Below are positions 15,253 through 42,822 of a stretch of 64,000 nt of DNA, piece by piece. The stretch is from Pseudeuparius sepicola (taxonomy: Eukaryota > Arthropoda > Insecta > Coleoptera > Anthribidae): NCBI GenBank assembly GCA_963920635.1, contig OY987307.1, positions 13,779,735-13,843,734 of the forward strand, read 5' to 3'. A program made the position numbers and the translations under genes. Numbering within the stretch: the first letter of the stretch is position 1; the number at the start of each line of letters is the position of its first letter. The notes beneath the pieces were generated by a model. That model was not told the origin of the DNA. It saw only the letters and a list, made by a program, of their open reading frames with translations, and did no database searches.

Positions 15253-15286
<34 letters not shown>
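15253..15286. repeat. (TA)n microsatellite
   Basis: 34 bp of alternating TA directly at the right end of the mariner-type element. The same length is found at 24517-24550. Confidence 0.95.
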
Positions 15287-15287
<1 letters not shown>

Positions 15288-15806: not shown

Positions 15807-15823
15807 ATATATATATATATATA

Positions 15824-16425
15824 CAGGGTGTTCCTTAATAACATGCTAATACTTAAGGGAGTTATTTTTGGGCCCATTTTAAGAAAAAAACTTCATATGA
15901 ACGTATGTCGTAAACGTCCCAACTTTTGAGATACAGGGCGTTAAAGTTCATTTTTTTAAATTGAATTTTGGCTACATCTCCCGAAATAATCAAGCTGCTG
16001 AACTGAAATTTGGCACTGCTATGTTTTTGGGGATGGAGAATAAGCTGAAAATGTCAATTTCACCGTATCTCACAGAGGGCACCACTTGCGCTGTTTTTTG
16101 ATCACGCTTTTACGCGTAACTTTTTTGAGGTTATCTTTTTGGTCCTGCAGGTCCATCATTTTAGTGCATATTTTCATTCTACAAGAAAAAGGTACTCTTG
16201 TTTCATAACGATTAAATCAACCGTTTGCTTTGAAATTGCCAAAACGTTCTCCAAAACACCTGTTGACTTCAATATTCGAAACATAAAATTTTCACCTACC
16301 ACCTTCAAGTTTTACAGATCAACTGTTCCATTTAATGCCCATTTGGCATTTTTTTTATCATTTTGAATGTACAGTTGATCTGTAACATTTGAAAGCAGTA
16401 GGTGAACATTTTATGTTTTGATTGA
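15824..16425. mobile_element. CAGGGTG-ended foldback MITE, right arm truncated
   Basis: Starts CAGGGTGTTCC at 15824 after TA. The inner halves are inverted repeats around a GCCCATTTGGC centre (GTACAGTTGATCTGTAAC on the right mirrors GTTTTACAGATCAACTGTTC on the left). The right arm ends prematurely near 16425. Its internal sequence is shared with the complete element at 43905-44675. Counterpart at 25088-25689. Confidence 0.7.
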
Positions 16426-17280
16426 TGATTATACAGTTCAAATTCTCTGACTGTTTTTAACTCTGGTTATTGGTTCGGACTAGTTTGAGATTGCTTCCTA
16501 GAACAAACCTATTAATTGCAATAAATAATAACAGCAGTTAACTTTATAAAAAAACACTATATTCCGTAAAGATATAATATACTTTCTCAATGTTTGTTGA
16601 AGAATAGTCGGTCTTTGGATTACAGGATTTACTTCTGAATACAAGTCCGAAAGGGGATCTGGCAACGGTGCAGCAAACTAGTAAAGATAACGGTGCCGTC
16701 CTAACCTAATCTTGATGTTTTGCGGGTATCGAAACATAACCTAGCTTTCTAGCTTTGCGGTTTTCGCGTTTCGCGAGATTGTTTCGCTTTGGCATCTCGC
16801 TTTAAGAATTGTGAGAGAATAAATAGGTATGTCAATTTCCGGAAGATTGTCTGAACTTGCTTTAACAAAACCCACATTCACTACAGGAGGAGCCATTACT
16901 TTACTCTTTGTCAACTTCTTCGCACTGAAACAGAAAGCAAATTAAACACTCTATCTACTCTCATACCTATATAGGTAGGTATTTCTTGGAATCTAAATGA
17001 TTACCTATTTATATTCTTTAGGTACCTACCTACAATCAAATTGAGAAAGAGTGCTTACTAAATTATACTTTGCTCTCAAACACTTTTATCTGGGGATTGA
17101 ACTACCTACTACCAATATCAATTTTAAGGTACCTATTCATTTTTCTTTGTAATTGAAACTATAGGATTTAGGATTGTACCATGTACATAAGTTAAGATTT
17201 GCATTTGTAATTAATTAGATTTTATTACACTATCTCTCTCAATTTCAAACACAAGCACAATTTTTAATTATATTATTATA
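16426..17280. other. No gene recognised (and 25690-26540)
   Basis: AT-rich sequence with several GGTAGGTACCTACC-like motifs near 16975-17130 and a CGCGTTTCGCGAGA stretch near 16768. I see no coding signal. Confidence 0.4.
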
Positions 17281-17422
17281 TTGTTTTGATTTTGGCATAT
17301 TATGTCGTTCTAACATCATCGGAACCAACCATTAAAAAAACAAGGTATTATATTAGGTTTTGTACCAGATTTTAACAATAACAATCCAAGCACGTTTCCT
17401 TGGTTACCACCTTTATTGTTTC

Positions 17423-17566
17423 ATAAAAATCCTGGGTATCTACTAATTAATTAATTTAAACTTGGTGGAAAAAGGAACTCTGGTGGTGTTTTTACGTAGG
17501 CTACATGTTAGCAAGTGGCCCGACATGTGTTTTGAATTACAAATTGGTAGAAACCCAGGATTTTTA
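17423..17566. repeat. Short MITE-like inverted repeat (tandem copy 2)
   Basis: Identical counterpart of the element at 8159-8302. Confidence 0.55.
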
Positions 17567-19558
17567 TTAAATGACCTACAAACTATCAGGAGAAAGAAAA
17601 AGAAGAAACACCTTTATTGTAGAATTCACAAATAATGAACTTTTCAGGCACTGTCGCTAACCAGAAATATTCTTCTGCTCTCAAATTTTCAAAATCACTT
17701 TCTAACCTTTACGTACCTACCTCAAGGCCCACTTCCCAGGGCTTATATACTCAAATGGAAGACTGGAAACTAGAAACTACTCTAGAATATTCCTGGCCAA
17801 TGATACTTTTACAAATCATAAAGTTCTAGAAAATTTCTAGAAACCTAAGGACACTCTAAAGGGACAACAATGAAAAACTAAAAGAAAATGGGACCCTGGG
17901 GGCCACAGGTCAACAAAGCTGTAACGGTAAATGCGTCCAAACTAATCTTAAAAATTATAAAACTCTAAGTAGAATACCGAAACCTAAAATTTATCTGCCA
18001 AATCTTTGAGTAGGTTAGGAAACAGTGCAAATGTGTTAATTAAAAGCTAATATAACAACTTTAGAGGAATTTTTCGTCTCATTATTATTTACTAATTATT
18101 TATTTTCTTCCCTCAATCGGACTAAATAAAAAACGATCATAAAATATTTCACCCACTGAGCAGTAAAAAATGCACGTTTAGAATGACAAAGAAATAGTCC
18201 AAGAGCCGGCCGCATTATTTCAACTCTCATAAGATTATAGAATAAGATTTTATGTAAAATGCAGAGAGTATATTTCTTTACTTGAAGCGATTAGGTTGCC
18301 TCAATTAATATGGGTCTGATCATTGTTATTTCAAGAAGTTGTGGTTAATTTTCAGGCAAATCTACTCTCATATATGATTATAGAAGAAAATAGGTACCAT
18401 CGGAAAGAAGGCCCATGGAGCAAAAATAAAAAAGGGGTTGCCACCTCCCTAAGCGGTTTCTTCGCAATGGCAGTCACCAGTAAAGTGGTGTTTTTTTTTT
18501 GTTGACTTTCAAGTCTCATAAACTTATTAAATAAATTCGATGCCAAATGAAAGCTTGAATTTTTCTCTACAAGATGAGGTGAGGTTGCCTGCTACAGGGT
18601 GGGCCCAATAACCGGCAGCCAGCATTTTATGACGCGGTGGGCGGTGGACCTTCCCCGTAGCCAGCGTCCAAGAGGACAGAACACGCTGCTCCATGTGGTA
18701 CACGAGGATGATGCTTCGCTGGCAATAAAATGTATGTATGTACCTACAGGGTGATCCAAATTGGTCATTTTTAGGGGGTTTCTCCTATTTCTCGACGAGA
18801 TAGTAAAAAGTAGCTAAGATGTCTGGAACTCCATTTTGCGAGGAAAGTTGAATGCCGCAAACCGCATCTCGATATCTTGATTAGTTTAGGAGATACAGGG
18901 TGTTTCTCAAAATGTCTCATTTTCTTCACAGTCCCATAACTTTTTTATCTGTGACTTCCTCATTTTCGTAAAAATATTTATAGGGCACTTTTTTACGTGT
19001 AATTTACTGAAGTAGACGGCAAGTTTTTATATGTTTCTGTTTTAGAGTTATAACAACAAATATATGTTTTTACATGGTAAATCCTAATTAAAATACCGTA
19101 ACATGGGTATACTTTGATCAATTTTTAAATTAAAAGTTATGTGACTTTTCTTTGAAAAATAAAAGTGGCACAAGAAATATCTTAATATCGGTTTTTCTTG
19201 ATCTGCAGATTCTGAAAAAAATGAAGTAAAAAAAACAGTACTTTTACAGAAAAAAAAAATAAAAAGTTGGTGACCAAAGATATACCTAATATGGGGATAC
19301 TTTGATCACCAATGATTTTTATACAGGAGTACAAAGTAACCCCACTAATAAGTATGAAATTTTTTTTTTTTAATTCTACAGCTAATACTTTGGGTTTTAG
19401 AGCTAGATTTGTATATTGGGGTAACATTAATCATAAACAGAACTCATTTTTATTTAGAAAAATTTATTTATAGTAAACAAAAATATATTTTTCTTTTATG
19501 AATAAGGCACATTAACTTAACAGCCATTTACTTTTAATACTTTGGCAAATATCACATC

Positions 19559-19722
19559 ACAAAAAAAAAAACAAAATACCGCAAGCGCAACTTATCATCG
19601 GATAACACATGAATTTGCTACTAAACTTTAATTTTGTTCGATTAGCAGCTAGAAATTTAAATTAATCGAAATCAGAGTTTAAAAATATTAAATTTTTGTG
19701 TCCAACTTTCTGCCGGTCCCTG
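19559..19722. mobile_element. End fragment of a CAGTGACC-family MITE (tandem copy 2)
   Basis: Identical counterpart of 10295-10458. Confidence 0.65.
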
Positions 19723-19874
19723 TATAATGTGCCAAAGGGAAGTTTGAATTGCTTAGACGCCACACGAATGCTCGATGTTTCATCAGCTATCATTTGCAAC
19801 TCTCTTTCCAATGCATCGTCAGTGTAATCACGGTACTGTCGAGTCCCAAGTATTCGTTTATGTGTACGAGGCAT
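19662..19874 (-). pseudogene. Pogo-like transposase N-terminus (tandem copy 2)
   Basis: Identical to 10398-10610: a psq helix-turn-helix exon cut at residue 51 by the terminal repeat of a CAGTGACC-family element. Confidence 0.7.
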
Positions 19875-21086
19875 TTTTCTGAAACAAAACCAAAAGTTCG
19901 TATTATTTTATAAAATTTTAAAGCTTATTTATACATAAAAAAAATATAATAAAGGGGAAACATTGATCACTCTACTATCCAACTCGATTATAAGAATATA
20001 TAATAAATGGGCAAACTTTGATCACTCGACCAATGTTACCCCAGACCCTGATCAAAGTTACACCATGGCATAAAACCGATCTAAACAAAAATATATGTGA
20101 TAATTTTGTCATGTAAATAACTCAGTAAATTTCTCAAATATATTGTCGAGGTATAGCATATCTTAGCATAACCTGATTTTGCAAACTTACCCGTGTGGAT
20201 ATGAAGTTTTTAAGCCTATAAAAACACGCCTAATATATGTGACACTTAAATACCAGTGGAGCACGTGTGCACGTCCAACCCGGCGCTTGCTCAACGACGA
20301 CTGCCAAGCGCGACCTTGACTGCGCCTAACCGCACAAAAATAAAATGGCGCGCACAAATAATACAGCAGCTACGGGCGTTTAGAAAATAACGAAGTTTCG
20401 ATCAAAGTATACCCGGGAAACAAAGTATACCCATGTTACGGTATTTAACTTTAAAACAGTAAACTACAGAAAACTCCCCTCTTCACTAGTGGATTCTACG
20501 CAAAAAATTGCACTTTAGAGAAATGAAAAATATTCACAAATAAAAAAGTTATAGGACTTTGAAGAAAATGAGACATTTTGAGAAACACCCTGTATCTCCT
20601 AAACTAATCAAGATATCGGGATTCGGTTTGCGGCATTCAACTTTTCTAGAAAATGGAGTTCCAGACACCTTAGCTACTTTTTGACTATCTCGTCGAGAAA
20701 TAGGAGAAACCCCCTAAAAGTGACCAATTTGGATCACCCTGTAGGTATATACCTACATTTGATTCGAAGGTGTGCGCGTACTTATGTCTACCTTTCTATC
20801 AGCATATGAACAAGGCCTGGGATTATTATTTACTTAAAAAATCTCGAGGCATAGCTGCCCAAATAAAACAATACTTTAAGAGTTGGTCCTTATTTTCTTG
20901 ATTGTAAAAGTCTCGGTAGAAGTTCTTTTTACCAGCAATCTTTAAATTTCCTCTGTCTAGGTACTTAATATATCGGCGAAGTGACAAGAAGTAATTATTT
21001 TTGTGCGCTTATGAAGAAAGCAATAACCAGTTCATAGGATACTTGGGATAGCAAACTTACCAACAGGAATAATTTTCAAAGGTAAC

Positions 21087-21744
21087 CTATAGCTCATTTT
21101 TATTTTCGCAATCAAATGCCTTAGTGAGATCACACAGCCTCACCGCAGTATGTCTTCCCTGATCAAGGTTCTGTACTATGCTCTCAACGACACTTCTCAC
21201 GGCTTTGCTGGTGGGAAATCCCCCCCCCCCTAAAGCCAAATTGAGCAGATGTAAAAAACATATTATTTCCAAAATAGTCTTTTAGGCGGTTGTTGAGAAT
21301 ACATTAAGTCACCCTAGCAAATTTAGGCACTACCGATATGGGTCGATAGTTGTCTAGACAATTTGCATTTCCCTTTTTTAACAGGGGCGTCACTTTGGAA
21401 ACCTTGAAAGAGTCCGGGAAGCATCCGAAAACCAAACATTCAATTATCAACTCAGCCAAGGGTTCGGATAGAATGTCAGCACTGTCGACAAGTAGTTTTG
21501 TGTTCAAATTATTTATATCTGTTGAGGCAGATTTCTTAAGTTGTTTAATAACATTGAAGACTTCATGGGCAGTTGTTGGAAACAGAAAAAAGTTTTTTGT
21601 GTCCGCGGGCGATACACCCATCATGTCCATAACATTATGTTGCGATGTTGGTAGAGCAGTGATGATATTCTCAGCCACCGAGGTAAAAAAGGAATTGAAA
21701 TCGCAAGGAGACAGGTGACACTCAGTTGCGTTACCCCCCTTAGA
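21087..21744 (-). pseudogene. LINE reverse transcriptase fragment (tandem copy 2)
   Basis: Identical counterpart of 11823-12480, with the same stop and frame change. Confidence 0.8.
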
Positions 21745-21767
21745 ATTTCGCTCCCAGTTTATTTTTA

Positions 21768-22138
21768 AAGCAGTAAATGAAACTTATCCCACGGCTGCAA
21801 GGCTTAACAAACACAAAATTGTCGACAGTTCTGCATGCAACAAATGCAGCAAAAATGATACGTTGATGCATAGAATAAAAAACTGTGGCGATGTAAAAAA
21901 TATATGGCGTTGGATCTATAAAGTTCTAGAAAAAAACTTTAGTATAGATTTTAACTCAAAGCAAAACATTCAAGATTTAGTACATTTTAAGATTCCAAGC
22001 ACTGAAAAGAACGATGGATGTAAATGGATAATATGCGGCTATATACATTATATACTCAAGTGTAAAAAATCGAATTTGATTGAATTGATAGACATGTTAA
22101 GGTCTCATAGATACAGTTTAATAAAAAAAGGTGTATAG
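21768..22138 (+). pseudogene. LINE ORF2 C-terminus (tandem copy 2)
   Basis: Identical counterpart of 12504-12874. Confidence 0.6.
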
Positions 22139-22509
22139 TGTAAAGGGCTATATACATTATATACTCAAGTGTAAAAAATCGAATTTGATTGAATTGATAG
22201 ACATGTTAAGGTCTCATAGATACAGTTTAATAAAAAAAGGTGTATCTCCAAAAAGTTTACACACCCTAGGTTTCTAAGTATCTTAGAAATAGACTAAGTA
22301 TTTATACAGTTCGAATACACGGACTACGGACATGAGCCAAAGCTAGTCCGATTGACTGGCAGGTCGTTTGGTTTTTAGTGTACTCTGGACGACGGGTGGG
22401 TGCGTATGGCGATTTAAAAAAATCCCATACTATCGAGCGTTTATTCTAAAACTAATATGCTATTTTTTAACTCTTAAAATAAAAGTTATTCCAGAAAAAG
22501 AAACACATT

Positions 22510-22821
22510 TTACAACAAATGTTCAAATAAACCGCCTTCTGCGGCTAAACAATAACCCAGTCTACCATAGAACCCTCTCCTTACGTTAGCCAACATGTTC
22601 GGGGTAATTAGTTGGAAGGGACGTTCAATTAATTGACGCAATTCTTCCAAATTATTAGCACTATTCTCCCTAAAGTCGTAAATTTGTGATTTAACAAATC
22701 CCCATAAAAAAAAGTCACACGGAGCCAAATCTGGACATCTGGCTGGCCATAAAATTGTTCCCCTGCCGCTAAGAAAACGATTCGGAAAAGTTTGGTTTAA
22801 ATACTCCTGTACCAATATAGC
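22510..22821 (-). pseudogene. Mariner-like transposase C-terminal fragment (tandem copy 2)
   Basis: Identical counterpart of 13246-13557. Confidence 0.75.
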
Positions 22822-22823
22822 AG

Positions 22824-23152
22824 AGAGAGTGGCCCGCTCCGCCTTCAGCTCATTGGTAAACCACTTGATTGGATGCCTTTTTGGGCTACAAGATCTCCTC
22901 AGGGGAAAACATTCAACAGCATACTTCGTATACAGATCGATAATAAACTGCACGCGATTGTTCATGTCTGTCACATTACCACCAGTCCAACATCCCCCAA
23001 AAGATTCCTGAACTTGGACATTCCAGCATCAGAAATCCTCCTAAATGTATGGTTCAAGGATCTCTTGCAACTAGCTCTTAGACTTAAATACACACCCATG
23101 TGCTCAGACAGATGTGGGTCACATACACCAGATAAACACAGATCGCTATATA
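22824..23152 (-). pseudogene. LINE endonuclease-RT linker fragment (tandem copy 2)
   Basis: Identical counterpart of 13560-13888. Confidence 0.6.
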
Positions 23153-24513
23153 CAGGGTGGTTCACTTTTATGTGGTAGGACTTTAACATTAGATAGAAAA
23201 AGATAATCTAAAATGAAAATTTTATATCAACATATATCGGGGAAAGCTTAGTTTCCGAGATACAGGGCGTTGAAGTGTTGGAAAAAATATGAAGTATTTT
23301 TTACACTGTCCGAACCAGTGGAGATATTTAAACCAAATTTGATGTGTAGTACCACCTTTTTGACTACGATATTCAGTGATAATATGAAGGTCCTGAAATA
23401 ACTAAATTTAAAAAGTAATTAGTACGGACCTGTCTCACATCAACGTAAGTTTTTTTAGTAGCTGAGCATAATAATATGTGGGAAGACATTCCTTTAAACT
23501 TAAGATTGTTGGCTTGGTTCCAACTTGACGGCTGTCCTGCACATTTTCACCGAAATGTGAGGAACTGGTTAAATAATAACTTTCCAAATAGGTGGATCGG
23601 ACGAGGGGGACCGGTCGCTTGGCCACCACGTTCTCCGGACATAACACCTCTGGACTTCTTCGTATGGGGATTTTTAAAAGAACAAGTCTATGCGACTCCT
23701 GTAGAAACAAGGGAACAACTTATTGATCGTATCAGAAATGCGTGCGATGAATTGAGAAATGGCAATTTAATCGATGCTGTTCAATCCGTTAGGCGTCGAA
23801 GTGAATTATGTGTGCAACAGAATGGATCACATTTTGAACAATTGTTGAATGTTGTACAAATTTAGAATTATAAAAATTATTAAGAAATAATACAGATTTG
23901 ATAAAAATGTTAAAATGATAATAAAGTAATGTACCTCAAACCAAGTGCCAGTTTATTTTTAAAATTGTTTCCATAAAATTAAAAATAAAATAGCTGAATC
24001 CGATAAGTGTTCCATAATTAATTTCTGTTATTTGCGATATTTATCAATAATGTTAGAAAACACATTTTTAGGCAAAAAAGGCTGAGATGGAAACGAAATA
24101 ATTTATTTACTACACAACCGTGGCAGATACAAAAAAATGTCAAGATACACTTTTCGTAGAGAATTGAAAGAACTTTACGAAAAAAAAATTTACGTTGATG
24201 TGAGACAGGTCCGTACTAATTACTTTTTAAATTTAGTGATAGTGAAAACCCATAACTCCACCACTGGTTATTTCAGGACCTTCATATTATCACTAAATAT
24301 CGTAGTCAAAAAGGTGGTACTACACATCAAATTTGGTTTAAATATCTCCACTGGTTCGGACAGTGTAAAAAATACTTCATATTTTTTCCAACACTTCAAC
24401 GCCCTGTATCTCGGAAACTAAGCTTTCCCCGATATATGTTGATATAAAATTTTCATTTTAGATTATCTTTTTCTATCTAATGTTAAAGTCCTACCACATA
24501 AAAGTGAACCACC

Positions 24514-24516
<3 letters not shown>
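23153..24516. mobile_element. Mariner-type element (tandem copy 2)
   Basis: Identical counterpart of 13889-15252. Confidence 0.85.
23476..23865 (+). pseudogene. Mariner-like transposase, C-terminal part (tandem copy 2)
   Basis: Identical counterpart of 14212-14601. Confidence 0.8.
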
Positions 24517-24551
<35 letters not shown>

Positions 24552-25087
24552 TTCATTTGTTGCTTCCCAAATCATGCCTATCTTTTGATTTGGTTAATGT
24601 TACACCGTACTGATGATTGCCAAATAGCATGAAACACGTGTATGCGGTTACTAGTTTTTTCTTTTTGTTAACTTTGAGTGTTTGCCCATTATCACCTTTT
24701 CTTGTAATTGTTACATTTACACTCGCTAATCTTACATCCTTATTGTCATTGTATCTTGGGTTATGAAGATTTCCACGCAGGTCGCTTTAGCAGCCTCCGT
24801 GGCGCTGTTAGTACAAGCCCCAAAATAGGGGATGTGCTGACTGAAGCTGCAAATGTGCTGTTGGCTCCTGCCTGGACTTCATTTGTTGCTTCCCAAATCA
24901 TGCCTATCTTTTGATTTGGTTAATGTTACACCGTACTGATGATTGCCAAATAGCATGAAACACGTGTATGCGGTTACTAGTTTTTTCTTTTTGTTAACTT
25001 TGAGTGTTTGCCCATTATCACCTTTTCTTGTAATTGTTACATTTACACTCGCTAATCTTACATCCTTATTATATATATATATATATA

Positions 25088-25689
25088 CAGGGTGTTCCTT
25101 AATAACATGCTAATACTTAAGGGAGTTATTTTTGGGCCCATTTTAAGAAAAAAACTTCATATGAACGTATGTCGTAAACGTCCCAACTTTTGAGATACAG
25201 GGCGTTAAAGTTCATTTTTTTAAATTGAATTTTGGCTACATCTCCCGAAATAATCAAGCTGCTGAACTGAAATTTGGCACTGCTATGTTTTTGGGGATGG
25301 AGAATAAGCTGAAAATGTCAATTTCACCGTATCTCACAGAGGGCACCACTTGCGCTGTTTTTTGATCACGCTTTTACGCGTAACTTTTTTGAGGTTATCT
25401 TTTTGGTCCTGCAGGTCCATCATTTTAGTGCATATTTTCATTCTACAAGAAAAAGGTACTCTTGTTTCATAACGATTAAATCAACCGTTTGCTTTGAAAT
25501 TGCCAAAACGTTCTCCAAAACACCTGTTGACTTCAATATTCGAAACATAAAATTTTCACCTACCACCTTCAAGTTTTACAGATCAACTGTTCCATTTAAT
25601 GCCCATTTGGCATTTTTTTTATCATTTTGAATGTACAGTTGATCTGTAACATTTGAAAGCAGTAGGTGAACATTTTATGTTTTGATTGA
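25088..25689. mobile_element. Truncated foldback MITE (tandem copy 2)
   Basis: Identical counterpart of 15824-16425. Confidence 0.7.
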
Positions 25690-26540
25690 TGATTATACAG
25701 TTCAAATTCTCTGACTGTTTTTAACTCTGGTTATTGGTTCGGACTAGTTTGAGATTGCTTCCTAGAACAAACCTATTAATTGCAATAAATAATAACAGCA
25801 GTTAACTTTATAAAAAAACACTATATTCCGTAAAGATATAATATACTTTCTCAATGTTTGTTGAAGAATAGTCGGTCTTTGGATTACAGGATTTACTTCT
25901 GAATACAAGTCCGAAAGGGGATCTGGCAACGGTGCAGCAAACTAGTAAAGATAACGGTGCCGTCCTAACCTAATCTTGATGTTTTGCGGGTATCGAAACA
26001 TAACCTAGCTTTCTAGCTTTGCGGTTTTCGCGTTTCGCGAGATTGTTTCGCTTTGGCATCTCGCTTTAAGAATTGTGAGAGAATAAATAGGTATGTCAAT
26101 TTCCGGAAGATTGTCTGAACTTGCTTTAACAAAACCCACATTCACTACAGGAGGAGCCATTACTTTACTCTTTGTCAACTTCTTCGCACTGAAACAGAAA
26201 GCAAATTAAACACTCTATCTACTCTCATACCTATATAGGTAGGTATTTCTTGGAATCTAAATGATTACCTATTTATATTCTTTAGGTACCTACCTACAAT
26301 CAAATTGAGAAAGAGTGCTTACTAAATTATACTTTGCTCTCAAACACTTTTATCTGGGGATTGAACTACCTACTACCAATATCAATTTTAAGGTACCTAT
26401 TCATTTTTCTTTGTAATTGAAACTATAGGATTTAGGATTGTACCATGTACATAAGTTAAGATTTGCATTTGTAATTAATTAGATTTTATTACACTATCTC
26501 TCTCAATTTCAAACACAAGCACAATTTTTAATTATATTAT

Positions 26541-31867: not shown

Positions 31868-32275
31868 TGTTACGGGCGACGTGAAGACTTTTTAAAAAAA
31901 CTTTTATTTGGGTAACGCGAGTTACAGAGTTTTTGCTTAGACTACAGACAAGACTAGAATTAACACTCTTACTTTACTAGGTCCTATTTATACAGATCTG
32001 TTATGCTGAGGTGTTGTGGTTCTCATGGGAAAAGAATATAATAAACAAAGGGAAGATCAAATTCTGCAATTCTTGCAGTAAGCAAGTTTTAACAATACTC
32101 AAAAGGAATATGGTATGTTCTGGTAATCATTCTAGAACAATATACAATGGAAAATGATATCTTTGTAGTAAGCATCTTGAACAATAGAGAATGAGAACAT
32201 AATATCCAACAGTAAACAGAATCAAGGGTAAAAACAAGGTTATGATCAAGGTGATGCTTGAGGTCGGATATAACA
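31868..32275 (-). repeat. 3' LTR of the provirus (408 bp)
   Basis: Starts TGTTACGGGCGACGTGAAG and ends GGTCGGATATAACA on the plus strand, so both strands show TG...CA ends. It matches 42424-42822. It lacks a GACGAA hexamer near the start and has extra bases around TAGGTCCTATTTATACAG. Confidence 0.95.
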
Positions 32276-32287
32276 CCTTCCCCCTTA
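32276..32287 (-). promoter_or_regulatory. Polypurine tract
   Basis: Immediately inside the 3' LTR the minus strand reads AAGGGGGAAGG, the purine run that primes plus-strand DNA synthesis in LTR retroelements. Confidence 0.8.
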
Positions 32288-32323
32288 TATTAAAAATTTG
32301 TGTTAACAAATTTTAACATTAAA

Positions 32324-32587
32324 TTAGGCATATGTTTTAGTATTAGAATTTAGTTCAATTTCTTCTTCTTCGCGAGGTTCGTCCAATCTATACGAAGGTC
32401 TTCTTTTGACAGTAAAAAATTTTCTTAAATTTTGAAAAACGCGATTTCGAGTTCTAGGAGGTTGTGGAGGATCGTCTCCGTTATTAGTGGCAATAATGCC
32501 TATTTTAATGTTCATAGATTTTTTACATTTAAAATAAAAGTACACAATAATTAAAAGTATGATTAAAGTAATGGATAGATATGTCAA
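32324..32587 (-). pseudogene. env: env membrane anchor and cytoplasmic tail
   Basis: An 87-codon frame with a hydrophobic segment at residues 4-19 (LSITLIILLIIVYFYF), then Lys/Arg-rich and acidic stretches (RKFFTVKRRPSYRL, EPREEEEIEL). This fits the transmembrane anchor and cytoplasmic tail of an errantivirus Env. It ends about 50 bp before the polypurine tract. Confidence 0.75.
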
Positions 32588-32647
32588 TATTGGCGTATAC
32601 TTATTTACAGTCGGTTCGTTAATAATATTATCAAGATCCTTTGCATA

Positions 32648-33700
32648 TTAGTCTAATTTATGCTTTGCGACATTTAAATCGTCATAATTAAATTTATTTA
32701 GTTGTAAAGGTTTTAAGTCAGGTAATTTTAGTTTATTTGGAGTTTCTTTGTAACAGTCAAATGGAATACTAATTGGGTTAAATTTATAGGTTTGATTAGA
32801 TTTATTTAAATTTTTCGTTTGAACTTTAGTACTTCCAATATAGGCGATGCATTCAGATTTTAGCGTTAAAATTGAAGTTTTATCTAGCATTATAGTCAAA
32901 GGATTTTGATTTTTACACTTAATGGTTATAGGAAACATTTCACTTGAAATTATTAACCATTGATTCTCTTGAATCAATTGAACATTGTAACTTTCAATTG
33001 AAATTGTGACTATGTCACAAGTATTAGGTAAATGGGTTTTTACCTCTAATAATTGAGCTTCACATCTTGAATGTGAGTCAATAGGAGTAGGATATAAATC
33101 TTTGCACATTATTAGATCGAATGCTAGTTCTTTACAATTTTTTATATCATAGAGAATTACATAGAGAGCTGGGTCATCGCTTTTTGCTACAAATTTAGTA
33201 TCAGTGGATACCATGTGATAAAATCCAGTTTTATTGTCGAAAATTGGAATAGGATAAATTCTATAAAGAGTATACCATTGAGGTTCTACTAAAGGAATGT
33301 CTAATATAAAAACGAGCCTATTTTCTGTTTGAAAAACCTTTAGCTCTATAAAGTCAAGATAAGTTGCAACATTTAGGAGTTGAGGAGTTAATGGTAAATT
33401 ATTTTTGTTTAAAGTTTGAGCGATTATTTGCAAATGATGAACCAGGTCTTCAGGAGTTATAACTGACGTGTGAATAATATGTATCTTTGCAAAAGTAATA
33501 GAATTTAGAATGTCATTTATAAATTGCTTTCGATAAAGGTATAGGATTCTAGGAGTCTTGTAATTTTGCAGTGTAATAGGTAAAATTATCAGAAATGTTA
33601 TAAATGTAATTTTCGATTTGTTTTATGTCATTATTAAGGGTAATTTCATCAATTCGTAATTTGTTGATAGAGTCATTAAAATTTTTGATAACTGAAGTAG
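32648..33700 (-). pseudogene. env: env ectodomain part
   Basis: Open from 33433 to 32648 (261 codons); homologous-looking bases between 33433 and 33700 are in other frames. It contains YLDFIELKVFQTENRLVFIL, PLVEPQWYTLYRIYPIPIF and several Cys in the NCKELAFDLIMC and RCEAQLLE segments, as in the F2-like part of errantivirus Env. Potential N-glycosylation sites (NKSN, for example) lie near its end. The membrane anchor is in the next frame. Confidence 0.75.
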
Positions 33701-33721
33701 TTACTAAAATTTGTTTTTTCA

Positions 33722-34200
33722 TTAATTTTTCAATTCGTGTTCGTCTCTGTTAATTTTGTCAATACAATCGTTATAATACTGTCCGTCTGAAGCATCTAAA
33801 TTTCCGGTAATAAATTTCCAAACTGACCCTAAGCCATTAATTAAACCTCTTTTGTATCTTCTTACATCAATAGCTAATTCTTCAAATTTAAGCGCAATGT
33901 TTTCGGAAAGTTGATTTAATAAAGTGAGATGTGATTTAACTTCGCTTAGAAAGGCGGCCATTCGTACGTCTTTTGGTTGAATTACAAATTGCATATTTTC
34001 TAAAATGTTATTATTATTTTCGAATGTTGTTTTCAGAGATGAAATGTCTTTATACACCAATAAACTCCACTTGTCATTAGAAATTTTGAGTCCGGATTGC
34101 TCTTGATAGAACACGCCTATGGTGTTATTAATTGGTCGCAGGGTATATTGTGCCATAGCGGTAGCGAACAAAGAAAATCTGTAACGAAGTTTCAGAATTA
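33722..34200 (-). pseudogene. env: env N-terminal part with furin site and fusion peptide
   Basis: The minus strand has a hydrophobic signal-like stretch just after the macrodomain stop, then an ectodomain. A basic RYKR site (residues 105-108 of the 149-codon frame) precedes a Gly-rich hydrophobic GLINGLGSVW and a conserved GNLDASDG-YY block. This is the arrangement of errantivirus Env and baculovirus F proteins. No ATG precedes the signal-like stretch, so expression would need splicing. A stop at 33722 ends this part; the next part is in other frames. Confidence 0.85.
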
Positions 34201-34782
34201 GGAACTTGGTTTAATATAACAAATTATTTTAATATCAGTATTTTTGAAAATATATTTGATCATATGGAGAACTGTGTCCCAATCTAATTTATCTAATCCA
34301 CAAGCTAACTTGGGGATGGCTATAACTTCATCTTTTTCGTCAGTGCTCTCGAGGCAAATTGTTCGTAATTCTTTTAAGCAATTAAATAAATTAGCATAAG
34401 TAGGTTTATAATAGAAAAATTCTTTAGTTATTAAATAATAAATATTTTTTCTTGTCGGAAGTTGAAGTACTGCTATTTCACCAATTGACTTATTTTGATT
34501 TTTTAGTTCATCTACGTGTCCAAATTTATTCTTAAATTCTTTTGCAATTCCTGCATTCATTTCTAGGTCTTTAGATACACAGTGGGCGAATGAAACATTT
34601 TCAGGGACATCAAATAAATTGCCCAGTTCAATGGAAACGTTATTATTTTCAATAGGGATTTTTCTATCTAGAGTATAAAAGAATTCTTTAACAGTTAGTT
34701 CTTCGTCCTCCAATTCGTGACATTTCTTAAGCATATCAAAATTCATTTTTGTAGTTTGGTTAGTAATTGGGTTATGTAGCAA
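34198..34782 (-). CDS. TARG1/OARD1-type macrodomain in a retroelement Pol
   Basis: A 194-codon frame on the minus strand; the first ATG is codon 13. Residues 1-20 (HNPITNQTTKMNFDMLKK) are the tail of the integrase GPY/F domain. Residues 48-190 form a complete macrodomain of the TARG1 kind: ELGNLFDVP, SFAHCVSKD, MNAGIAKEFKNKFG (ADP-ribose-binding loop), YYLITK, KPTYANL and ACGLDKLDW. K120 and D164 sit where TARG1 has its catalytic Lys84 and Asp125. TARG1 removes ADP-ribose from acidic residues and from DNA ends and deacylates O-acetyl-ADP-ribose. Here it would be the C-terminal part of Pol, before env. It has no stops, although most neighbouring genes are broken. A role against host ADP-ribosylation is inference. 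Confidence 0.88.
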   Translation of the reverse strand: MLHNPITNQTTKMNFDMLKKCHELEDEELTVKEFFYTLDRKIPIENNNVSIELGNLFDVPENVSFAHCVSKDLEMNAGIAKEFKNKFGHVDELKNQNKSIGEIAVLQLPTRKNIYYLITKEFFYYKPTYANLFNCLKELRTICLESTDEKDEVIAIPKLACGLDKLDWDTVLHMIKYIFKNTDIKIICYIKPSS

Positions 34783-36140
34783 AGCTGAATTCGAATTTCC
34801 TTAATTTTATAGGGTCCATTGAATTTGTTAGCTAGTTTATTTTTTATTTGGGACTCCTTGACATAAACCTTTCCTCCTACGCGAAATTGTCGCTGCTCCG
34901 CAACGTGTGTATCAAATCGCTGTTTTGCCTTTTGCTTGCGCATATCCGTACATTTTCTCGCCACTTCATAATAATGCTTTATTTTATTGTTTAAATCGCG
35001 AACGTATCTAGAGATTAATTCTTGCTGATTATACAAAACTTCTGGAGGTCTGGACGAGGTGTGACCGAACAGTAATTCATAAGGAGTAAAGCCGTGTGTT
35101 TTATTTATAGATTTGTTATATGCTATACAAGCGTAAGGAAGCATTTGAAATGGGTGTTCGTTAGGATTTTCTGTACTACACGCGCGTATCATTTCAGTTA
35201 AGGTAGCGTGAAACCTTTCTAAAGAACCATTTGATTGCGGATGACTAACACTAGAGAAAGTTAATTTTATATTGTATACTTTACATAGATCTTTCATTAA
35301 TTGATTATTAAATTCTTTACCTACATCGCAATGGATTCTTAAAGGAGTTCCAAATTGTTGAAAATAGAGTAAAAAAGCGTCTACTACAGATCTCGCCGTT
35401 TTATTAGGAAGTGCGTAAGCCTGGGTAAATTTTGTCAGTTCGTCTCTTATGGTAAGGATATTATTTTTCACTGGGATTTCTAGGATGTCAATATTTATTC
35501 TTTCGAAAGGAGTTTTGGGAGTTTCAGTAATGACTAAAGGACTGTCCATGTTTTGTCTACAAATTTTTGTCTTTTGGCAGATTTCGCACTGCCGAATAAA
35601 GGTTTCAACGTCTTTAGTTAGTCCTGTCCAGTTATATTTTTGTTTAATGCGTCTAATTGTTTCGTTTATTCCTCGATGTAAGTTTGTCTTGCCTGGGTGA
35701 AATTGATCTATTATTATTGGTATTTGGTCTTTGTCTGGTATAGTCACAATGTTCTGACAAATTGTTAATTGGAAATTTTTATCTGAGAACAAAAAATTAA
35801 ACATTTCTAAAATTGGAGAGTCTGGATTGTTTTCGATGTAATAAGTTTTATTTTCTTCGAATATATCTTTACTGTAATAAAGAGATATGAAGAGTACTTG
35901 TATTGCAGTTTCAAAATTAAAAGGAACAGGAATTATATAATATTTTCTTTTAGCTACAATTTGACTGGAAAGAACATTTGCTTTATTATAGTTAAAATCA
36001 GGATTTAGCTCGAGTAAATCATCGATAACTTTTTCGTGAAGGTCTGTTAATTTGTCTTGTTGAAAAATTAGTACAATGTCCTTGTGTGTTTTGTCTAAAA
36101 GTTGATTATTTGTGTATTGGATTTTAGAATAGTCGATCAT
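34743..36140 (-). CDS. pol: Integrase (465-residue open frame)
   Basis: An open frame with a full set of integrase features. The zinc-binding HHCC consists of H148, H155, C185 and C188. The catalytic triad is D218 (INIDIL), D272 (IHCDVGKEF) and E308 (NGSLERFH), with 35 residues between the last two, the DD35E spacing. A GPY/F-type start lies near the end (NKFNGPYKIKEI). Just after this block the frame shifts: the last 17 residues (to LLTKLQK) are out of frame, and the true GPY/F tail continues in the next frame at 34782. Integrase inserts the cDNA into the genome. Apart from the 3' shift it looks intact, and it is the longest open frame in the window. Confidence 0.92.
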   Translation of the reverse strand: MIDYSKIQYTNNQLLDKTHKDIVLIFQQDKLTDLHEKVIDDLLELNPDFNYNKANVLSSQIVAKRKYYIIPVPFNFETAIQVLFISLYYSKDIFEENKTYYIENNPDSPILEMFNFLFSDKNFQLTICQNIVTIPDKDQIPIIIDQFHPGKTNLHRGINETIRRIKQKYNWTGLTKDVETFIRQCEICQKTKICRQNMDSPLVITETPKTPFERINIDILEIPVKNNILTIRDELTKFTQAYALPNKTARSVVDAFLLYFQQFGTPLRIHCDVGKEFNNQLMKDLCKVYNIKLTFSSVSHPQSNGSLERFHATLTEMIRACSTENPNEHPFQMLPYACIAYNKSINKTHGFTPYELLFGHTSSRPPEVLYNQQELISRYVRDLNNKIKHYYEVARKCTDMRKQKAKQRFDTHVAEQRQFRVGGKVYVKESQIKNKLANKFNGPYKIKEIRIQLCYITQLLTKLQK

Positions 36141-36660
36141 TGAAGTTGTCTTGTATAACTAAAAAATCTGTCAAATTCATTACAGATTATAGCAATTTCG
36201 TCAGTCTCATTATTGTCAATAGGCGGGTCAATGTCTTGAGGATTATCATGGGAAGTAGATGGTTCGTCTAGGGAAGTGTGAAAGGAAACAGCTTCTTTTA
36301 CATGATTGATTTTGATTCGAGACAAAGCGTCGGCATTTCGATTAATTTCTCCAGGTTTATAAATTATTTGATAATTATATTCTTCTAATTTAAGTCGCCA
36401 ACGTGTTAAACGACTACCAGGATCTTTTATTGAGAAAAGCCAGGTTAAAGGTCTATGATCTGTAAGTAATAAGAATTTTCGTCCGAAAAGATAAGGTCTA
36501 AAGTTTTTCAGCAATTATTGCCAAAAGTTCTTTCTCATTTCTGCTAGGCTTAAGGTTCTTGAAAAGTATACTATGGGAAGATCATTTCCAACAGGTCCTT
36601 GCGAAAGTACCGCTCCTACAGCAAAAGCGCTTGCATCTGTAGTTAAAACAAATTCTTTTT
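36137..36660 (-). pseudogene. pol: RNase H domain of Pol
   Basis: The minus strand reads LTTDASAFAVGAVLSQG (first catalytic Asp), FSRTLSLAE, then in a new frame FLLLTDHRPLTWLFS and RWRLKLEEYNYQIIYKPGE, and NADALSR. These are the expected RNase H blocks of gypsy elements. A frameshift near 36515-36525, at the ETNYST-type Glu region, breaks the domain. An acidic linker of about 60 residues leads to integrase. Confidence 0.85.
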
Positions 36661-36665
36661 CAAAA

Positions 36666-37075
36666 TTAAGATATATCAGAATTGGTGTTTGGTTTGGTTA
36701 TTAACGCATTTTTAAGTTGTTCGAATGATTCGCGACAATCTTTATCAAAAATAAATGGTACGTCTTTTCTTAAAAGTCGGGTTAAAGGCTTTGACATTTT
36801 TGCAAAATTTGGAATAAACTTCCTGTAGTAACCAGTAAGACCCAAAAATTGTTTAATTTGTTTAGTAGTAGTAGGTTGAGGAAAATCTATTACAGCTTTT
36901 ACTTTTTGTGGATTTGGTTTAACCCCTTCAGGTGTAATAACATGTCCTAAATAAATTACTTCTTTTCGTAAGAATTCACACTTATCTGGCTGTATTTTTA
37001 GATTTGAATTTCTTAATCTTTGAAAAACTTCAGTAATACGAGAGATATGCTCATTAATTGTGGAAGAATAAATAA
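36666..37075 (-). pseudogene. pol: Reverse transcriptase, C-terminal (thumb/connection) part
   Basis: Continues the RT on the far side of the insertion: EVFQRLRNSNLKIQPDKCEF, VIYLGHVITPEGVKPNPQKV, QFLGLTGYYRKFIPNFA and FEQLKNAL. The GHVIT and GYYR-FI blocks are standard for gypsy RTs. Counting one AATAA copy as target duplication, the two RT parts are in the same frame, so the split is due only to the insertion. Confidence 0.9.
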
Positions 37076-37524
37076 CCCATATAGCATTTAATATTTTTTG
37101 AATATGCAAAGTAAGTTCCTAATGTGCAAAAAATATTCCCCATATTTATAAAACATTGTTACAATATTTTACGAAATATGTTCAGTAACTGCATATACCC
37201 AAGATATTTGTTAATCGCAGATACAAATATAATATATTAGATGAATGTACAAATGATGTATATGTGTGTTTTGAATAACAATATCTTGTGTAACATATTC
37301 CTAACTTAGTGGTTCTATAAATATTTATAAATTGAACATTTAACTTAAGTACATTACAGGCACGTTCACCTTAGGAACGTGCAATTTGGAATATTGCTGG
37401 AACATGCTAAATAGTATATTCATACAGCAAATATCTTATGAATGTTCACAAACGGTACTTATTCCTAGTCTTGTGACGTCACAGAGATTCTAGCTTACAC
37501 TATTTTTAGATAATATTTCCAAGT

Positions 37525-37598
37525 ACCTCGATGGCTCAGTTGGTTAGAGCGTCAACTTGTAAATCGATGGTCGTAGGTTCGAACCCAGAAACTGGTGT
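37525..37598 (+). pseudogene. tRNA-Thr-like segment inside a DNA transposon
   Basis: ATGGCTCAGTTGGTTAGAGC (A-box and D arm), an anticodon-loop-like CTTGTAAA (anticodon TGT, Thr), and GTCGTAGGTTCGAACCC (B-box, T arm). The T stem and acceptor stem no longer pair fully. The same segment with other point changes occurs in the second copy (57147-57220), so it is part of the element, not a chance insertion. Confidence 0.6.
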
Positions 37599-37768
37599 TG
37601 GCGGATTTTTTTTATTTTACAATCTACACGTGAATATTAAATGGATATACATAGAACATACATTGAATACTTTGTGGAACGTGCATTCAATATATTTGTG
37701 AATGTTTATATTACGTGAAATAGTACCTTCAAAAGGCGAACACCTGAATGTTGCCTGAATGTTCAGAT

Positions 37769-39298
37769 TGTTACAACCAAATGTGATTTTAGTTCGATAT
37801 TTGGTGAACTCGCTGGGGTCACTAGGAAATACCTAATAAAAACAATAATTGTTTTTCTACGCATGTAATCGCCCTGGAGTTTCACGAGTATCTCCTGATA
37901 TTCTTCTGTTTTAAATCCCTCCAAACTGCTTAATTTTTATCCGCTTCCTAAGTATGTTTCTGATGTAATCTCTAATTAGCTATTTCCGAAGGCAACTGCA
38001 TCGCCATCTATTGAGCAGCGCCTGAGGCTACTATGTGTGCTTCCTGGTTCCGTGGTACCCTCGCCGTGTTTCCTCGCTATTAATCACAGATGTCCTTCGG
38101 ACCCAGTTTAACGAATAAAATCTTTCTTATACTACCACTATTTAATACATCTCATTCCATCCCGAGATTACATTTTGGGTAAGTTCAACTGTGAATATTT
38201 TATTCTTGGAGCTGTTTTTTTTTACACAGTGTTTTCTTTATAGAGCACCTACTCCAACGGTTTCGGTGCCGGAATTTCACGATAATTCAAGGACACTTGT
38301 TGATAAAAAACCCTCATATCTCGAGGTTAGATTTATTTTTGTTTTTCAAGTCCCCATTTTGGTTTTAATTCCCAAATTGATTTATGAGTGTAACTAAAAT
38401 AGGTTTTCTATTTTAGGGTTTTTTTATTTCCCGGCCTATAAGTTCTTAATTACGGCCTACGAATTTTTCTTGTTTTGGATTTGAGTTTGGAGCGTGGCCT
38501 TGATGATTCACTAACAGCGAAGACCTAGCGGTTTTCTTCTTGGAGCGCACATTGTCCTTGACTGTTCTAAGAGGGGTTCGGAGAACCTTCGCCCAGAAAC
38601 ATCGTAGTTTTGAAGACTCAACTTGCAGCTAAATTTTGCATGTTTACCTTTTTTACATTTATCGTGCCTGGACTAGTAAAACTAATTTGATTTACGTGTA
38701 CAATCGAAAGCGTAGGCTGCTACTGTCTACCTTCCTTTTATTATTGCGTACGTTGTGATATTTCTGCGTACGTCTTGATTATTATTGCGTATATTATGTC
38801 GTGTCAACTCTTGCGGGGTTGTGATTAGTTATTGCAACGTTCTGTGCTATTATCATTGTTTTTTTCTGTGAACTGAACGTGTACACGCTCGGGGGTTTAT
38901 GATACTATAGGCTTGTTTTACTATACAGCACGTATCATTTTAATTATTAATATAGCTGGTGAATCTGAAAGGCATAGCTTTAAAGTTATGACTAGTAATT
39001 ATTGTTTATAACCTTGAGAGTATTTAGTGCCATTTACTCAATCTTATTGATATTTTTGAGTTCAGTTTTTATTTACCTACGAAGGACTTTCCTAGTTTGG
39101 ACTTAAAAGAAATTGTGTGAGATGTAGAGCGCACAAACTAGGTGGCGCCTATTATTATAAAGATCTTTTATTTCCCACGCCCGTCTCCACTGTTAGCTGG
39201 CGGCCGCTCGATACTCACCAACCAAGAATTGAGGTAGGTAATTTGACTTTATCTTGGATTTATTTTTCTTACCATCGCGTTACGCTTTGAAGGTAACA
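37769..39298. mobile_element. Solo LTR (1.53 kb) nested in the DNA transposon
   Basis: Begins TGTTACAACC and ends GGTAACA with the 4-bp duplication AGAT on both sides (37765-37768 and 39299-39302). The sister transposon copy at 56657-57495 lacks this block at the same point. The termini TG...CA and target size fit a Ty3/gypsy-type LTR left by recombination. An AATAAA signal is near 38115. Short frames inside have no motif. Confidence 0.85.
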
Positions 39299-39398
39299 AG
39301 ATAATGTTTCTACAGTTTTTATGAATATTCCTACAATATGCATGTTCTCTGAAAAAATATTTTCATAATATTCCGCCAATGTGATTTTGCTATATGGG

Positions 39399-40229
39399 AA
39401 TAATGTCGTCCATGTAAACTAAACACTTTTCGTTTTGTATCCCCATTAGTATATTATCCATAACCCTCTGAAAAGTTGAGGGCGCATTATGAAAGCCAAA
39501 GGGCATACGTAAATATTCAAAATGACCATTTTCAACAGAAAAAGCAGTTTTTGAAATGTCTTCTGGATTCATTTCAATTTGTTGAAAACCAGAAGCGAAA
39601 TCTAAAGTAGTAAAATAATGGCAATTACCCAACTGTTCTAATATATCTGAAATATTAGGCAGTGGTTACCTGTCATTAACTGTTAATTCATTTAATTTTC
39701 GATAATCAATGACAATTCTCCATTTTTGTTTGCTTGAAGCGTCTAATTTTTTTGGAACGACCCATACTGGGGACGACCATGGTGAAACAGAAGGTCTAAT
39801 TATTATTCCTTGAGAAAGCATTTTATTAATTTGTGTTTTTACTTCTTCCTTGTGAACCTGTGGATATCGATAAGATTTAGTACAAATTGGCTTAGCGTCG
39901 CCTGTATCAATAGTATGTTTTATTTCATTGGTAAAACTTAGGAAATCTCCGTCAAACTAAAATATATCTTCAAAATTTAAACATAAATTAGTAATTAATT
40001 CTTTTTCTTCTTGGTTTAAATGTTCTAGCCTTAATGATTCTTTTATTTCTTCTACTCTACTTTTTGTTTCATTAAAATTACAAATAATATTAGTATTAGC
40101 GTTCGTTTCTTTAATGTCAGGCTCAAATTCAAATTCCTCGAAACAAATATCCTTTGTTATGGCATTAGCGTTTAATATTGTCGTATAAAAATTACCGTCT
40201 TCGTTTATTTTTACTATAGCATTTGGCAC
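39399..40229 (-). pseudogene. pol: Reverse transcriptase, N-terminal part, cut after YMDD
   Basis: Contains, in order, an RT entry segment (about 40229-39957), [63 protein letters not shown] and VYMDD. A stop lies between 39957 and 39960 and another near 39669. Two residues after the catalytic YMDD the frame enters the terminal repeat of an inserted DNA transposon (37076-39398). The remainder of RT is at 36666-37070. Confidence 0.9.
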
Positions 40230-40244
40230 GTATACCTTTTCTAC

Positions 40245-40840
40245 TCATTGTGCGCATAAAATCATTTCTTTATTCGTATATTTATTCGTATGTAACTTGC
40301 GTATTTTTTCGCAACGCGGTTCTATCGTAACCATATTTATATTATAACTCGTATTTTCGCTTTCAAAATTATTTATATTTTCCGTATAATCATTATTATT
40401 ATTATTATTTCGTTCATAAGCGTTTATATGAAGGCTATCGTGCCTTTCGTCAACATTAACTTGTCTTTTATAAACAACTCGATTATTATTATCATCATTA
40501 TTATTCGAAAGCTCGTTAAATTCATCTCCGTCTTTTAGTAATTCGTGTACCTTATAGTACGTAATTAATTGTTTATTCCTAAAACCTACTATTGCACCGT
40601 ACCTTTCTAAAAAGTCAGCGCCTAAAATTCCGTCGAATCCTATATCTAGATCGCAAATATACACTTTATGGGGAGAAAGAGGACCAGTAAAAGAAACAAA
40701 TACCCCTTCATTTGAAAATTCTCTGGACATCGATTTAAAAATTGCTGAACCGTCTCTGGTTTGAAAATTGAAATACCAGCTCCCGTGTCAATTAAAATTT
40801 TGTACTTATCGGTATTATCTTTAATATGATATAAATTACT
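40245..40840 (-). pseudogene. pro: Retroviral-type aspartic protease
   Basis: The minus strand at about 40780-40790 encodes the active-site DTGA (an ILIDTGAG-ISIF context). About 80 residues later the ILGADFLERYGA block follows, the second hallmark of the aspartic protease fold in gypsy elements. The two lie in different frames; a shift occurs near 40730. After the fold comes a long N-rich spacer before the RT domain. It would cleave the Gag-Pol polyprotein. Confidence 0.8.
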
Positions 40841-40854
40841 ATTGTCAACGGTAT

Positions 40855-42093
40855 TTATGCAAACGTTTGGTCCGTATTGGTCATACCAAGATTCTTGAAG
40901 TTCGGAATAGGATTCTGGTCCGAGGCTGTTATTTGAAAATTTTCAGTTTGTTCCAAATAATGTTGTTGAGGAGCTCTATTTTGGTTATTAGGATTTGAAT
41001 TTGGGAATCTAGGAGTCAAATTTTGATTAGTAGGCTGGAAACTTGAATTATTATTAAAAGTTCTTGGGAAATTGTTTCTAAGAATATTATTAGAAAAATT
41101 TCTAGGAGGTTGATTTCGAGGTTGGAAGGTTTGATTTTTCGGCTGGAAGGTTTGAGGTTGATTCCTAGGTTGGAAAGGAGAGGAATGTTGGAAATTATTT
41201 TGATGAGGGATGAGGGAAAGATGTACTCCAAGGTCTTTGTTGTTGGAATCTATTTTGAGAGAAATTATTTCTTGAGGAGTTATTTTGGAAATTGTTAGAG
41301 AAGTTAGGAAGATTTGGACCATTCCTGTAAAAATTGTTTTGATTTTTAGTTCGACATTCATTTATAATATGTCCATTTATTTTGCAATAATTACAAAATT
41401 TTGGAAAATTATTCCTGGTTCTTTTGACATTATTATTGAAGACGGGTACGCGATTTTGCCTCTGAAATTTTTGATTTTCAAAATAGGAAAGTTGCAATTC
41501 TCTCTTAATTAAAGCTATAGCATCCATCATGTTTGGTGGATGGCTAGCACGAATTAATTGTCCTATCTTTGGTTCTAGACCCGTTAAAACTGTATCTAGG
41601 CACATGCTATCGATTAATGTAGCTTGCGACTCTTTTTGTTCCCTAGTGAGAAGGCTTTGTTTTCCTATTGCGGCATATATTTTCGAGCAGTGAGTTTGAA
41701 CTCTGCCTACAAAAGTCAAAGCATTTTCATTTTGGGATGGACACATTCTTTGTAAATCTTGAATTAATGAAGTTAGATCGCGAGGATCTCCGAAATGAAC
41801 GTTAAGTAATTGTTTGATTTCGCGCCAGGTACTCAAATCTCTTGAATTGATAAGTTGGGCTGCACGTCCCTTTAATTGGTTTTTTATTTTTATTACTAGT
41901 AAAATAGCTTGATCGCCAACAGTCATTTGCATGGCCTTATCACATGCAATGATAAAAGTATTTAAATTGATTTGATCCCATCGTATTCAGGAATGATAGA
42001 AAATATTTCGCTTAATTTAAATGGTACTTCGTCGTTATTTGAAGCGTTTGCTTCATTGTTTAGATTAGAGTTTATAGCTTCGTTATTCGGCAT
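40855..42093 (-). pseudogene. gag: gag (errantivirus-like), frameshifted
   Basis: The minus-strand ATG at 42091-42093 opens a frame beginning MPNNEAINS. It shifts near 41975, and the main part (41932-41195) carries the helical capsid-like region (QLKGRAAQLINSRDLSTWRE, HFGDPRDLTSLIQDLQRM) and a CX2CX4HX4C zinc knuckle (C180, C183, H188, C193 of that frame). A second shift near 41200-41230 leads to a low-complexity tail rich in N, Q, P and repeated FQPRNQ units (41361-40855). Gag would form the particle and bind RNA. Two frame changes make this copy inactive. Confidence 0.85.
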
Positions 42094-42260
42094 GTTGAAA
42101 TGTATATAGTTTATAACATAAAAAGGTTCAATATATCAACGTAGAAAGTTCAAAAATTCACACAAAAATTCACTTCAAGTTTTTCACTTACAATAGTAGT
42201 GACTTCATGCTCATTGGATGTCGTTGATGCTGCTGTTGTTGCTGGATGCTGGCCTCAGGC

Positions 42261-42397
42261 GACTGTCCTTCTCGGTGCCTCCGGATCTCCCTGTTGAAGA
42301 CCCTTTTCAGCTGGCTCCAATCGTAGTGGTGTGGTGACCCCCGAGGAGACTGTCCTTCTAAGTGCCTCCGAATCTCCCTCGTTGAAGACCCTTTTAT
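42261..42397 (-). repeat. Imperfect tandem repeat in the 5' leader
   Basis: About 48 bp (GACTGTCCTTCT, then GTGCCTCCG, ATCTCCCT, GTTGAAGACCCTTTT) occur at 42261-42308 and 42348-42397. They lie between the PBS and the gag start. The stretch is also open on the minus strand (42188-42421), so the repeat would encode two related REIRRH-EGQSP blocks, but there is no proof of translation. Confidence 0.75.
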
Positions 42398-42402
42398 CGA
42401 GG

Positions 42403-42420
42403 ATCCCACTTCTGACACCA
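42403..42420 (-). promoter_or_regulatory. Primer binding site of the provirus
   Basis: Three bases inside the 5' LTR the minus strand reads TGGTGTCAGAAGTGGGAT, the position and TGG start expected for a PBS. It looks complementary to the 3' end of an insect tRNA-Leu ending in TTCTGACACCA. The tRNA identity is from memory and unverified. Confidence 0.7.
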
Positions 42421-42423
42421 AAT

Positions 42424-42822
42424 TGTTACGGGCGACGTGAAGACGAAGACTTTTTAAAAAACTTTTATTTGGGTAACGCGAGTTACAGAGTTTTGGCTTA
42501 GACTACAGACAAGACTAGAATTGACACTCTTACTTTAAACAGATCTGTTATGCTTAGGTGTTGTGGTTCTCATGAGAAAAGAATATAATAAACAAAGGGA
42601 AGATCAAATTCTGCAATTCTTGCAGTAAGCAAGTTTTAACAATACTCAAAAGGAATATGATATGTTCTAGTAATAATTCTAGAACAATATACAATGGAAA
42701 ATGATATCTTTGTAGTAAGCATCTTGAACAATAGAGAATGAGAACATAATATCCAACAGTAAACAGAATCAAGGGTAAAAACAAGGTTATGATCAAGGTG
42801 ATGCTTGAGGTCGGATATAACA
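42424..42822 (-). repeat. 5' LTR of the provirus (399 bp)
   Basis: Partner of 31868-32275, upstream in the direction of transcription. On the minus strand it runs TGTTATATCCGACC to CCCGTAACA. An AATAAA-type signal is present near the U5 side (CTTTTATT read on the plus strand). Confidence 0.95.

Follow-up and report, generated by a model that had tools for sequence, protein, structure and literature searches.

This work concerns a retroelement in the genome of the beetle Pseudeuparius sepicola, found in a stretch of 64,000 nucleotides (assembly GCA_963920635.1, contig OY987307.1, positions 13,779,735 to 13,843,734 of the forward strand), the whole of which is hereafter called the window. Its Pol polyprotein ends in a macrodomain, which is a regular C-terminal Pol module (integrase, linker, macrodomain) in an abundant, young, env-bearing Ty3/gypsy family of errantivirus-like elements. 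Judged from its sequence, this domain is probably an active ADP-ribosylhydrolase, delivered by Pol, that would remove ADP-ribose added by the host.

The macrodomain is fused to the integrase

A search of the host genome (769 Mb) with the macrodomain of the window gave 1008 candidates at first look, of which 150 were scored. All 150 carry the macrodomain without an inner stop, the window copy being 99% and the others 94-96% identical to the query, and 50 of them lie in open frames of 1494-1499 residues. Integrase and macrodomain share one frame in six of the seven non-window copies that were fetched with their flanks; in the seventh, L006, the integrase was not seen within the fetched piece. 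This continuous frame makes the domain the C-terminal part of Pol in the window family. In the window itself the domain lies in a 194-residue frame, whose first approximately 20 residues match the integrase end of beetle relatives; the frame is thus the C-terminal part of Pol, which a frame break separates from the integrase frame in this copy. A first-pass annotation had instead taken it for a frame of its own, located between integrase and env. The continuity seen in other copies rules out a separate open reading frame or an env-linked gene. The same annotation held that copies devoid of the domain would mean that a host gene had landed by chance in the window copy alone; the 150 scored matches all carry it, 50 of them in the same long frame, which rules out such an insertion, and we give it next to no weight.

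An exception to the presence of the domain comes from a tandem array of Pol units (G000:C9:4193397-4327515), where the integrase of the window family matches 21 times, mostly at a spacing of 6,013 bp. L108, the one array unit end that was read, is devoid of most of the macrodomain and keeps only its last residues, following unrelated sequence.

Fold and active site

The 194-residue frame proposed by the first-pass annotation as a complete TARG1-type macrodomain is real and lies on the minus strand. The Pfam search suggested there gave a Macro match just above the cut-off (E 1.2e-4, 22.5 bits against 22), and the closest structures are chains of human TARG1/OARD1 (C6orf130; 4j5r, 4j5q, 2l8r), which match residues 45-189 (E 2.8e-34); the macro fold is thus closest to TARG1. 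The pocket residues of the human protein, as given in PMC6397177, have their counterparts here: H67, C68, S70, T119, K120 and D164 correspond to H32, C33, S35, T83, K84 and D125, respectively, so that both the catalytic Lys (K84) and the catalytic Asp (D125) are represented, by K120 and D164. Among 14 rows of element and cellular macrodomains, the T, K, C and D of the pocket are invariant. Unlike the human protein, the domain described here is part of a retroelement polyprotein and not a cellular protein, and an additional loop precedes its PxLxCGLD motif.

Purifying selection

The macrodomain is under purifying selection. In a sample of 39 copies, picked by rank of integrase similarity and by open frame (35 of the 39 in register), we counted 20 replacement and 16 silent variants in the macrodomain, which gives a ratio of replacement to silent polymorphism per site (pN/pS) of 0.305. 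In this sample the ratio is 0.38 for the integrase end and linker; one of the 17 replacements counted in the integrase part is an artefact of counting (a two-step codon). The YYLITK and CGLD motifs are kept in all 39 copies. An earlier count (12 replacement and 19 silent macrodomain variants, ratio 0.154; 39 copies, with 6 others out of register) was not used, because its copies had been ranked by macrodomain similarity and the ratio is therefore biased.

Macrodomains at other places in Pol

A second genome query, a scallop OARD1, gave 841 candidates, of which 150 were scored and 20 pieces fetched. Many of these matches sit in long frames distinct from those of the window family. The macrodomain lies upstream of the reverse transcriptase (RT) in 14 of the 20 pieces, one of which, L016, relies for this placement on its next piece, L118. 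The protease that precedes it scores above the Pfam threshold in L011 and L022 and is weak in L024. In four further pieces the macrodomain directly follows RNase H, with the integrase further on in three of them, and two pieces (L019, L023) have no assigned Pol position. The domain search gave no match in L117 and L119. With their next pieces, L022 and L025 show a Pol that ends right after the integrase, with no C-terminal macrodomain; conversely, the window family (L029) has no macrodomain before the RT.

Macrodomains of different families are 35-59% identical. A profile of our own, built from 85 cellular and unassigned homologs, finds the domain in all 28 pieces of all families, and Pfam Macro is above cut-off for the L021 and L023 pieces. 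The RTs of these sister families are 77-84% identical and yet the sites of the domain differ; close relatives therefore hold the macrodomain at different Pol places. The env-bearing, errantivirus-like carrier proposed in the first-pass annotation stands, while the domain is not confined to one site, two other Pol positions being used in other families.

A predicted macrodomain before the integrase

The region preceding the integrase is predicted to be a degenerate macrodomain, a macro fold being predicted from a 14-row alignment. The catalytic Lys motif of TARG1 is absent: no TK follows the YY(F)I strand in any of 10 alignment rows. Comparison of profiles between this domain and macrodomains gave no match. 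In the beetle Pols the pre-integrase domain is missed by the macro profile, which does reach this region in P0107 (domain E 9.6e-12) and P0108 (1.6e-12), two proteins that are among the 14 rows and may have helped the prediction.

Relatives and origin

The nearest integrases are from beetles (Anoplophora, Diabrotica and Anthonomus among those named), which by itself points to a beetle as the host. The errantivirus-like beetle Pols P0095-P0105 are 60-74% identical in integrase over the matched part and have the pre-integrase domain in common with the window element; eight of these 11 stop at most about 17 residues past the integrase end, without a macrodomain, and three do not reach that end. 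P0127, a public protein of 1025 residues and the only long one among the 84 candidates of the last protein search, combines in one frame integrase, chromodomain, TARG1-like macrodomain and a stretch that weakly matches a rhabdovirus glycoprotein. The integrase of chromoviruses carries a C-terminal chromodomain, likewise an extra chromatin-related module at this end; in the window family a macrodomain stands in its place, and in P0127 both are present.

Macrodomains of the nsP3/Nsp3 type erase host ADP-ribosylation in RNA viruses, and share the macro fold with the present one (PDB and BFVD rows). Domains similar by fold are also found in unrelated arthropod viruses, namely Kadipiro virus (39%), woodlouse iridescent virus (42%) and several thrips viruses. 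Scans of viral contigs with the macrodomain and with the integrase gave no confirmed relative. A scan of the same kind with a cellular relative as query gave four loci (L109-L112) on IMG/VR contigs of 20-170 kb filed as viral, with TARG1-like proteins 36-39% identical to P0023. Macro-domain or CNPase open reading frames are reported in teleost epsilon-like endogenous retroviruses (Basta et al. 2009, as cited in PMC4977317), likewise a retroviral lineage with a macro-domain protein, from vertebrates. As described there, the teleost domain forms an additional open reading frame, whereas here it is fused inside a Ty3/gypsy Pol, at three positions. Our literature search, whose coverage left out most subscription papers and preprints, found no macrodomain in a Ty3/gypsy Pol.

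Phylogenetic analysis included no insect host TARG1. A tree of 50 rows sets 13 macrodomains labelled as belonging to elements (10 from the host genome plus P0032, P0005 and P0087) apart from the sampled cellular ones, as a group with support 95/94; for P0005 and P0087 this label comes solely from the appearance of their tails, and Pfam finds nothing in them. A 27-row tree gives an element group of 14 rows (support 85/92). The first-pass annotation had the element capture a host TARG1 gene, which is not shown by these trees, with their separate element group and no insect TARG1 among the rows. P0127 falls outside the element group in the 50-row tree and in the 27-row analysis; an approximately unbiased (AU) test on the macrodomain data does not reject one group including it (p 0.286), and two separate acquisitions are not established. 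L022 and L024 are 84% identical in RT and 47% in macrodomain, which suggested a swap of the domain between families and is explained by fast evolution too. The swap is not established, since the RT grouping, be it of L022 with L024 (p 0.199) or of both with the window family (p 0.067), survives AU tests on the macrodomain data. The sequences are compatible with two histories: a single old gain, after which the domain evolved fast and changed its place in Pol, or else several gains.

The window copy and its surroundings

As the first-pass annotation had it, the provirus is bounded by LTRs (long terminal repeats) and contains env: an LTR pair, TATA at the outer sides as a short target duplication, a Pfam integrase and Baculo_F matches to both env pieces, indicating an env of the baculovirus F type, were all found (Table 1). 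Of 394 positions compared between the LTRs, 10 differ (Kimura two-parameter distance 0.026). The Pol order is RT, RNase H, integrase, and the nearest relatives are unclassified beetle Pols, so the element is termed errantivirus-like only. The copy is damaged by an insert in the RT, by integrase and macrodomain lying in different frames, and by an env in two pieces.

Table 1. Features of the retroelement, in window coordinates.
Feature	Position	Strand	Remarks
Whole LTR element	31868..42822	-	10,955 bp; broken copy; TATA at both outer sides
5' LTR	42424..42822	-	
Putative primer binding site	42405..42420	-	TGGTGTCAGAAGTGGG, 16 nt, by eye; presumably of tRNA-Leu type
Gag-like frame	41195..41932	-	CCHC-type motif CNYCKINGHIINEC by eye; no gag family found by Pfam
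Protease frame	40245..40730	-	GILGADFL by eye; no Pfam match
Foreign insert interrupting RT	37076..39398		2.3 kb, in the window copy
RT, C-terminal part	36666..37109	-	RVT_1 1e-7
RNase H part	36137..36514	-	RT_RNaseH 2e-12
Pre-integrase domain	35715..36140	-	Predicted degenerate macrodomain fold, without TK motif
Integrase frame	34743..36140	-	Pfam H2C2, rve; GPY motif; early end by frame break
194-residue frame	34198..34782	-	Integrase tail (first ~20 residues) and macrodomain
TARG1-like macrodomain	34213..34647	-	Residues 46-190 of the 194-residue frame
Catalytic K120	34423-34425	-	
Catalytic D164	34291-34293	-	
Env, N-terminal piece	33722..34171	-	Baculo_F 4.4e-8
Env, C-terminal piece	32648..33433	-	Baculo_F 5.3e-26
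3' LTR	31868..32275	-	

The first ~700 bases of the RT insert are similar (85-90%) to positions 56651-57399 of the window. Positions 8016-17276 and 17280-26540 are tandem copies of 9,261 bp with 100% identity, the result of a very recent duplication or else an artefact of assembly. A 154-residue frame, present in identical form at 13246-13710 and 22510-22974, has by eye the look of a mariner-type transposase. A 146-residue frame at 63096-63536 is gag-like by eye and probably belongs to a further retroelement that extends past the end of the window.

Discussion

Related elements hold the macrodomain at several Pol places, suggesting that it serves to counter a control system of the host; that it counters host ADP-ribosylation in particular is plausible. 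If, as is probable, the domain is an active hydrolase, Pol would carry it into particles and the pre-integration complex, and it would remove host ADP-ribose from element proteins, chromatin or DNA ends; this ADP-ribose could come from PARP1-type enzymes at integration breaks or from a silencing enzyme. Whatever its place in Pol, the domain keeps its catalytic pair, which argues that activity, more than position, is under selection, and favours an enzyme delivered by Pol.

Several points weigh against the favoured reading of an eraser delivered by Pol. The antiviral PARPs of vertebrates are, to our knowledge, not known from insects. The published TARG1 pattern, TKx(30,35)Px[IL]GxGxD as given in PMC6397177, fails in the window macrodomain, where the spacing is 36 and A replaces the first G; it is passed by 17 of the 28 pieces of all families and by none of the eight of the window family, hence our term TARG1-like. 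Moreover, the AHCVS motif is altered in three of the 39 selected copies (kept in 36) and the motif W also in three, and the probability of the variant counts under neutrality (P 6e-4, sites taken as independent) is rough, because the sample was picked for open frames and its members are related by descent. Finally, Pfam Macro is below cut-off for the L011, L016, L020 and L024 pieces and gives no match for L022, so that such calls in other families rest on our own profile.

The alternative that we rank second, and consider unlikely, is that the domain acts as a reader or tether, binding ADP-ribosylated chromatin and steering integration as a chromoviral chromodomain would, with hydrolysis secondary. 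The fusion to the integrase C-terminus speaks for a tether, and P0127 lines up an integrase, a chromodomain and a macrodomain; however, other families place the macrodomain before the RT or before the integrase, and binding alone would not need the catalytic pair that all 39 copies keep. Less probable still, Pol macrodomains may be structural spare parts, decaying scaffolds whose catalytic residues are relics. The pre-integrase domain, a predicted macrodomain without TK in all 10 rows, would be the model for such a decay, whereas the low pN/pS of the C-terminal macrodomain and a catalytic pair kept across families just 35-59% identical argue for maintenance. TARG1 acts on ADP-ribosylated nucleic acids, and a macrodomain fused to integrase might free the ends of cDNA or RNA of ADP-ribose, either during integration or ahead of it; this seems hardly probable, as the present data fit protein substrates equally and macrodomains upstream of the RT are less obviously suited by their place.

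A broader reading, which we put forward tentatively and hold somewhat short of probable, is that the macrodomain is a mobile module that recurs in the Pol of the errantivirus clade. The stretch from RNase H to integrase would have come to include a degenerate macrodomain as standard; intact TARG1-like hydrolases, now at no fewer than three sites, would have been gained or moved repeatedly within Pol. Together they would form an eraser system against a so far undescribed insect pathway in which ADP-ribosylation restricts or silences retroelements. We know of control of retroelements by ADP-ribosylation from a mammalian case only. This precedent is SIRT6, which acts on KAP1 and L1 and links ADP-ribosylation to retroelement silencing, according to PMC4695847.

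The domain is open to direct test, being small and of known active site, with hundreds of copies to show the selected features. If the favoured reading, an active hydrolase delivered by Pol, is true, an ADP-ribose eraser joins the short list of integrase-fused modules. An intact eraser repeatedly kept in Pol would point to a control of insect retroelements by ADP-ribosylation.
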